From: Pseudomonadota bacterium
GTDB taxonomy: Bacteria; Pseudomonadota; Gammaproteobacteria; Burkholderiales; Burkholderiaceae_C
Assembly: GCA_963205335.1 (NCBI GenBank)
Contig: CAUJIM010000088.1
Coordinates: forward strand, 27,669 to 91,668
Direction of reading: 5' to 3'
DNA: 64,000 bases
Shown here: positions 19,089 to 19,250 of the stretch, in pieces
Position numbering within the stretch: position 1 is the first letter of the stretch
Layout: the number at the start of each line of letters is the position of its first letter
Notes under the pieces: model-generated
What the model was told of the DNA's origin: nothing
Database searches by the model: none
Seen by the model: only the letters and a program-made list of their open reading frames with translations
Made by a program: the position numbers and the translations under genes

Positions 19089-19134
19089 ATAGACCACCTC
19101 AGCACCCCAGAAGAAGGGAGCATTGTATGTTTTC

Positions 19135-19152
19135 TTGGAGACGTTAGTTTCT
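19135..19152 (+). promoter_or_regulatory. Candidate protospacer for the crRNA-like element, preceded by TTC (19132-19134)
   Basis: TTC-TTGGAGACGTTAGTTTCT compared with spacer-like TTGGAGACGTTTGTTGCT at 19191-19208: positions 1-11, 13-15 and 17-18 identical. Sits between putative divergent -10 boxes (plus TACAAT 19156-19161; minus TACAAT read from 19127 to 19122). Confidence 0.6.
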
Positions 19153-19153
19153 A

Positions 19154-19250
19154 TATACAATACATGCTTCGCGTGAGCGTGGATTGAAACTTGGAGACGT
19201 TTGTTGCTGGGCAACAGCGAGAGGGGTGGGGCTATGCCTCACCCCTTTTC
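19154..19250 (+). ncRNA. Candidate CreA/CreR-like mini-CRISPR RNA (degenerate repeat, spacer-like segment, terminator)
   Basis: GCTTCGCGTGAGCGTGGATTGAAAC ending at 19190 shares its last 14 nt exactly with the I-C repeat of the array and keeps a small hairpin; followed by spacer-like TTGGAGACGTTTGTTGCTGGGCAACAGC and an intrinsic terminator. Confidence 0.65.
19223..19249 (+). terminator. Intrinsic terminator, plus-strand oriented
   Basis: GGGGTGGGGC-TAT-GCCTCACCCC-TTTT: 10-bp stem (one G:U) plus T-tract on the plus strand only; adjacent to the 3' end of minus-strand cas3. Confidence 0.75.

Follow-up and report, generated by a model that had tools for sequence, protein, structure and literature searches.

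A candidate CreR-like RNA in type I-C CRISPR loci that is predicted to repress the cas5c-cas8c-cas7c operon

Why would a CRISPR locus keep one degenerate repeat, followed by a spacer-like sequence, in the gap between cas3 and cas5c? We asked this of a 64,000-nt stretch of DNA from a member of the Burkholderiales (the window). The original prediction, which was made from the letters of the window alone, was that the repeat belongs to a crRNA-like RNA that directs the effector to a promoter, as in CreR and CreA, but in a type I-C system. The PAM, the length of the seed, the mismatches at positions 6 and 12, the terminator, and the overlap with a putative promoter all support this reading. Beyond what was predicted, the most frequent target across loci appears to be the promoter shared by a small membrane ORF and cas5c-cas8c-cas7c.

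By family models (Cas3 domains, Cas5c, Cas7c, Cas4, Cas1c, and Cas2), the neighborhood is a complete type I-C locus, with cas8c placed from its position only; the models for Cas5c, Cas7c, and Cas1c set the subtype. The relevant genes and the array are as follows.

12260 to 12364, minus strand: remnant of a type I-C array, two repeats and one spacer, CRISPR-DR9-like
15502 to 16488, minus strand: cas7c (Csd2; TIGR02589, E = 2e-119)
16485 to 18254, minus strand: cas8c, 589 amino acids, assigned from position and gene order only
18251 to 18904, minus strand: cas5c (Cas5d, the type I-C processing nuclease; TIGR01876, E = 2e-53)
18912 to 19088, minus strand: 58-amino-acid small ORF that opens the operon, with a predicted membrane segment and an N-terminal RELRL-like motif
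19253 to 21655, minus strand: cas3, the upstream gene, whose 3' end borders the terminator of the CreR-like unit (HD and helicase domain models)

In Rfam, the array repeats match CRISPR-DR9 with a score below the gathering score. The distal repeat of the array has a decayed end, and the two-repeat array may have collapsed or may be nearly lost. We also note that cas7c and cas4 flank a gene for a BRO-N domain protein within the cas operon (14608 to 15489, minus strand), and that the protein matches the PADLOC candidate defense family PDC-S13 (E = 8.5e-117).

The proposed regulatory unit lies on the plus strand, and its target is just upstream of it.

19122 to 19127, minus strand: TACAAT, -10-like box of a putative promoter in the cas5c direction, 4 nt from the PAM, from recurrence across divergent loci
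19132 to 19134, plus strand: TTC, PAM next to the target site in the putative promoter
19135 to 19152, plus strand: target (protospacer-like) site in the putative promoter of the cas5c operon, with the seed at 19135 to 19145; seed and PAM together are unique in the genome
19156 to 19161, plus strand: TACAAT, -10-like box of a putative promoter for the CreR-like RNA, as read from the sequence
19163 to 19190, plus strand: single degenerate repeat, a short hairpin followed by the 11-nt handle TGGATTGAAAC (19180 to 19190), which is identical to that of the array repeat
19191 to 19221, plus strand: guide (spacer-like) region, from the sequence and the comparison of loci
19222 to 19252, plus strand: intrinsic-terminator-like hairpin (19222 to 19246) and T-rich tail, the end of the unit, from the sequence and its folding

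This anatomy was as predicted, down to the coordinates. The last 14 nt of the degenerate repeat (GCGTGGATTGAAAC, 19177 to 19190, plus strand) equal the 3' end of the array repeat (12328 to 12341, minus strand). The guide starts directly afterwards with TTGGAGACGTTTGTTGCT (19191 to 19208) and agrees with the promoter site TTGGAGACGTTAGTTTCT at 16 of 18 positions, with mismatches at positions 12 and 16; TTC immediately precedes the site. The hairpin AGGGGTGGGGCTATGCCTCACCCCT and then TTTCCTTT close the unit. The fold that encloses this hairpin has a free energy of -24.8 kcal/mol, and the T-rich tail stops just short of the stop codon of cas3; a simple terminator scan of the window did not report the hairpin. 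The site lies between putative divergent -10 boxes. TACAAT can be read on both sides, and we inferred the boxes from their recurrence across loci; a strict consensus sigma-70 scan of the window found no strong promoter and did not recover the box for the RNA. The RNA matches no family in a scan against Rfam.

The handle and the seed are not words that occur by chance. Within the 3.02 Mb assembly, the 14-nt end of the repeat has just two copies, one in the array and one in the CreR-like unit, and the word formed by the PAM and the seed (TTCTTGGANACGTT) has a single copy, in the putative promoter of the cas5c operon. Across the 64-kb window, the promoter site is the only TTC-flanked match to all 10 seed positions.

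To compare loci, we collected homologs of Cas5c from GTDB species genomes, and we added loci that were found via homologs of the small ORF and on plasmids. We then scanned systematically for the end of a repeat with a guide behind it and a site that the guide matches. Most type I-C loci have 5 to 60 nt between cas3 and cas5c and nothing in the gap, and where the gap is 160 to 420 nt, a single degenerate repeat is usually present. In 24 of the cas3-cas5c intergenic regions (20 deduplicated main cases and four variants), there is one degenerate repeat, and the guide after it finds its matching site within the same locus. Two of the variants have TAGAAAC handles (L030 and L135; we use our locus numbers where needed), and in the other two, TTC is replaced by TTT (L081) or by GTT (L114). 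A weaker case that is outside of the 24, on plasmid pTM3 of Tistrella mobilis (L159), matches at 9 of 10 positions. We did not impose a PAM, yet the best site is preceded by TTC in all 20 main loci (22 of 24 if the variants are included).

The guides differ among most loci, and each fits its own gap. Across the 20 loci, the seed matches its own site at 8 to 10 of 10 positions, and guides that are compared to the regions of other loci match mostly at 3 to 7 positions. The only perfect cross matches are between the window and L006, in both directions, which are a related pair, and of the guide of L060 to L121; three further pairs match at 8 of 10. Where related loci have diverged, the guide and the site have changed together: at position 3, L042 has G and L113 has A, in the guide as well as in the site, and L119 and L120 show joint differences at positions 3, 5, 7, 10, 13, and 15. 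We also looked among about 150 type I-C cas5c loci for remnants of repeats that lack a matching seed, and every true remnant has a matching site in its own gap. The weakest pairs are in L023 (8 of 10) and L103, which has a good match only if there is a 1-nt bulge at position 6. Two other apparent pairs, in L011 and L085, have neither a true handle nor TTC, and we attribute them to chance.

Roughly one in six or seven of the type I-C loci has the unit; this share is approximate because some loci were found via the small ORF. Because most of the sampled loci have neither the gap nor the unit, the unit is dispensable. On a tree of cas5c, its presence requires 21 changes, which is no better than for shuffled labels, so we claim neither a single ancestral origin nor clean descent. 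The scatter suggests frequent gain, loss, or transfer.

In six loci (L081, L082, L131, L135, L030, and L159), a form that the original prediction did not include, the guide is on the coding strand, between the promoter and cas5c; a terminator that followed it would then fall in the leader of cas5c. Six other loci (L044, L046, L049, L065, L075, and L085) have a gap of about 790 bp with a similar-looking two-gene insertion; in L044, the one that we scanned, these genes are a PIN-domain toxin and a Phd/YefM antitoxin. Toxin-antitoxin or guard modules seem to have a hot spot in the gap between cas3 and cas5c.

The pattern of mismatches tells us what kind of molecule would use the guide. Among 19 guide-site pairs that align without gaps, position 6 is mismatched in 12 and position 12 in 17, against 0 to 3 for each of the remaining positions up to 14. 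Mismatches climb from position 15 and reach the background beyond about position 18. Type I complexes flip out every sixth position of the crRNA (PMC5904413), and type I-B CreA requires nucleotides 1-5 and 7-11, tolerates any change at 6 and 12, and has the PAM TTC (PMC8501985). As judged from these alignments, the pattern is the footprint of a type I R-loop, and it equals the seed that was mapped experimentally for type I-B CreA. TTC is also the experimentally confirmed PAM of a type I-C system in Xanthomonas (PMC8406640). In that work, interference by the type I-C system needed at least 27 bp of pairing, so partial matches should repress rather than kill; for type I-E, more than 18 bp are needed (PMC5904413). 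Pairing over about 14-17 nt should therefore allow binding without interference.

The handle fits processing by Cas5c. Type I-C Cas5d leaves a 5' handle of 11 nt (PMC5965380), and the final 11 nt of the window's unit are those of the array repeat. At many loci, the handle follows the locus's own array: CGCGGATTGAAAC (CGCGG) in L045, GAGGATTGAAAC (GAGG) in L082 and L120, AGTGGATTGAAAC (AGTGG) in L114, and GTGGGTTGAAAC (GTGGG) in L021. In L023, L118, and L119, it differs from the array by one nucleotide. The hairpin of the window's degenerate repeat is weaker than that of the array (-7.6 versus -18.1 kcal/mol), so it is uncertain if Cas5c would cut it. In all 20 of the loci that we folded, a stable hairpin lies 16 to 38 nt past the handle and ends the unit, and it might take the place of the repeat hairpin that a normal crRNA has at its 3' end. 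Most of the 18 divergent loci have a -10-like hexamer in the cas5c direction 1 to 8 nt from the PAM; an effector bound at the site would thus lie over that putative promoter. In the window, the presumed promoter of the CreR-like RNA overlaps the target site too.

From these sequences we infer that the RNA is transcribed, processed, and used for repression, as well as its physiological role. A short plus-strand RNA would be made divergently from the cas5c operon and would stop at the intrinsic terminator. Cas5c would cut the single degenerate repeat, leaving the 11-nt handle UGGAUUGAAAC and a guide of about 30 nt, which would load the effector (Cas5c-Cas8c-Cas7c). The effector would bind the TTC-flanked site amid the divergent promoters via positions 1-5 and 7-11, and in the window also 13-15; because pairing is partial, Cas3 would not be fired. 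The bound complex would block the promoter of the small ORF and cas5c-cas8c-cas7c. We are confident, but not certain, that a CreR-like RNA processed by Cas5c directs the type I-C effector to repress this operon; it probably represses its own overlapping promoter as well. Repression would be lifted when the effector is scarce, is occupied by ordinary crRNAs, or is blocked by an anti-CRISPR.

The usual first ORF of the operon is a membrane ORF of 40-60 amino acids that occurs almost only with the CreR-like unit: our profile matches 19 of 25 entries with the unit and 2 of 116 without (a few loci are entered there more than once). Of the two exceptions, L114 actually has the unit, with the GTT flank, and L047 has seemingly lost its guide. 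The core of the alignment is xMDxxGLLRELRLMxxQPxxRFYAxWxLV followed by a membrane segment. Between the window and L006, there are 0.84 synonymous but just 0.09 nonsynonymous differences per site, so this is very probably a real protein under selection; nonsynonymous change is similarly low for L042/L113 and L119/L120. The protein has no match in Pfam, NCBIfam, or PADLOC, and it does match the phage family phrog_6632 (45 amino acids, one membrane segment). The sites of this family differ among phages (L116, L117, and L154-L158): it lies either in the gap between endolysin and Rz in lambdoid lysis regions or among tail and baseplate genes.

Perhaps, then, the small protein is a toxin that is silenced by the effector, in an addiction or abortive module like CreTA or CrePA, and the cas genes are repressed only because they share the promoter. 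The near confinement of the ORF to these loci, its low rate of nonsynonymous change, its phage relatives, the unrelated small membrane ORFs in L131 and L135 (two of the loci with the guide on the coding strand), and the toxin-antitoxin genes in the gap of L044 would all fit. On the other hand, L009, L015, L073, and others have the guide and the site without the small ORF, so repression of the cas genes can stand alone. In L071, an 11-bp tandem duplication seems to shift the frame of the small ORF (an assembly error is possible), and the guide and site are intact. We view the addiction module as possible but less likely than not. Because the small ORF and the cas genes share the target promoter, this reading overlaps with the CreR-like one. 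The two could be combined in a guard-and-repair operon, in which one guide lets the effector repress both a small toxic membrane protein, possibly derived from phage, and the genes that rebuild the effector; an anti-CRISPR would release both, and at least two more kinds of small membrane ORF (in L131 and L135) would have come into this place independently. We consider this composite rather unlikely.

Other explanations fare much worse. It is very improbable that the RNA acts by plain antisense pairing or transcriptional interference without the effector. Divergent transcription and the likeness of the guide to the DNA upstream would fit, but a PAM, unpaired positions 6 and 12, and a conserved Cas handle would be meaningless for antisense pairing, and at the divergent loci the site is upstream of the proposed -10 box in the cas5c direction, hence outside of that transcript. 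Nor do we give much credence to a functionless fossil of a repeat and spacer or a chance duplication: the scatter on the cas5c tree is what sporadic debris might give, but decay would not spare the PAM, ten seed positions, and a terminator in 24 mostly dissimilar loci while positions 6 and 12 drift, and the word of seed and PAM is unique in the genome. Finally, a captured phage RNA anti-CRISPR would explain the solitary repeat and the small ORF with phage relatives (PMC10651486 describes such Racrs as lone repeat units that imitate the repeats of arrays), but it is scarcely credible, as the unit is fixed beside cas5c with guides that fit the local promoter, and a decoy needs no matching site. 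The pattern at positions 6 and 12 is not what any of these three (antisense RNA, fossil debris, and a decoy) would produce.

How does the CreR-like unit compare to known systems? CreR (Liu et al. 2023, doi 10.1016/j.chom.2023.08.005) is a crRNA-like RNA that is only partly complementary to the promoter of the cas operon and represses this operon via the effector, as summarized in two reviews (PMC13131331, PMC12737573). The window's unit resembles it in having a repeat-derived handle that matches the host's own array and seed-only pairing (10/10) to a PAM-flanked site in a putative cas promoter. Unlike CreR, it is in a type I-C system, without Cas6, and would use Cas5c; it has one degenerate repeat and a terminator, antisense between cas3 and cas5c; and a small membrane ORF usually accompanies it. 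The subtypes of CreR that those reviews name are I-B, I-E, and V-A; the absence of I-C there argues for a new variant rather than against the mechanism, and Liu et al. 2023 may itself predict it. With CreA of CreTA (type I-B, Haloarcula; PMC8501985, PMC9458426), the unit has in common a degenerate repeat, the TTC PAM, a seed at 1-5 and 7-11 that lets 6 and 12 vary, the repression of a promoter (proposed here), and a terminator at the end of one-repeat forms. CreA guards an RNA toxin, whereas the operon targeted here encodes effector genes and a small protein. In CrePA, a CreA-like RNA represses a KilA-N protein toxin (PMC12737573). Both have a protein-coding gene under CRISPR repression (putatively, in our case) that is freed by anti-CRISPRs, but the first gene under the window's promoter is the 58-amino-acid membrane ORF of the cas operon, not a KilA-N toxin; the BRO-N protein is further down the same operon. 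Unlike Racrs, the unit is inside the cas locus, not a decoy on a mobile element, and guides fit the local promoter at 24 loci. By every sequence criterion that we tested, it appears to work as CreR and CreA do, and we take the unit to be a type I-C variant.

The type I-C loci that we fetched from plasmids of Desulfovibrio vulgaris DP4 and Thermus thermophilus HB27 have no gap between cas3 and cas5c, which suggests why the I-C form might have been missed. The comparison also points to a small-protein family, open to experiment, that is linked to CRISPR self-control, and about two dozen natural pairs of guide and site provide an evolutionary map of the crRNA positions that matter. If we are correct, type I-C would join the subtypes with RNA-guided self-repression; this common subtype uses Cas5c, not Cas6, to mature its crRNAs.
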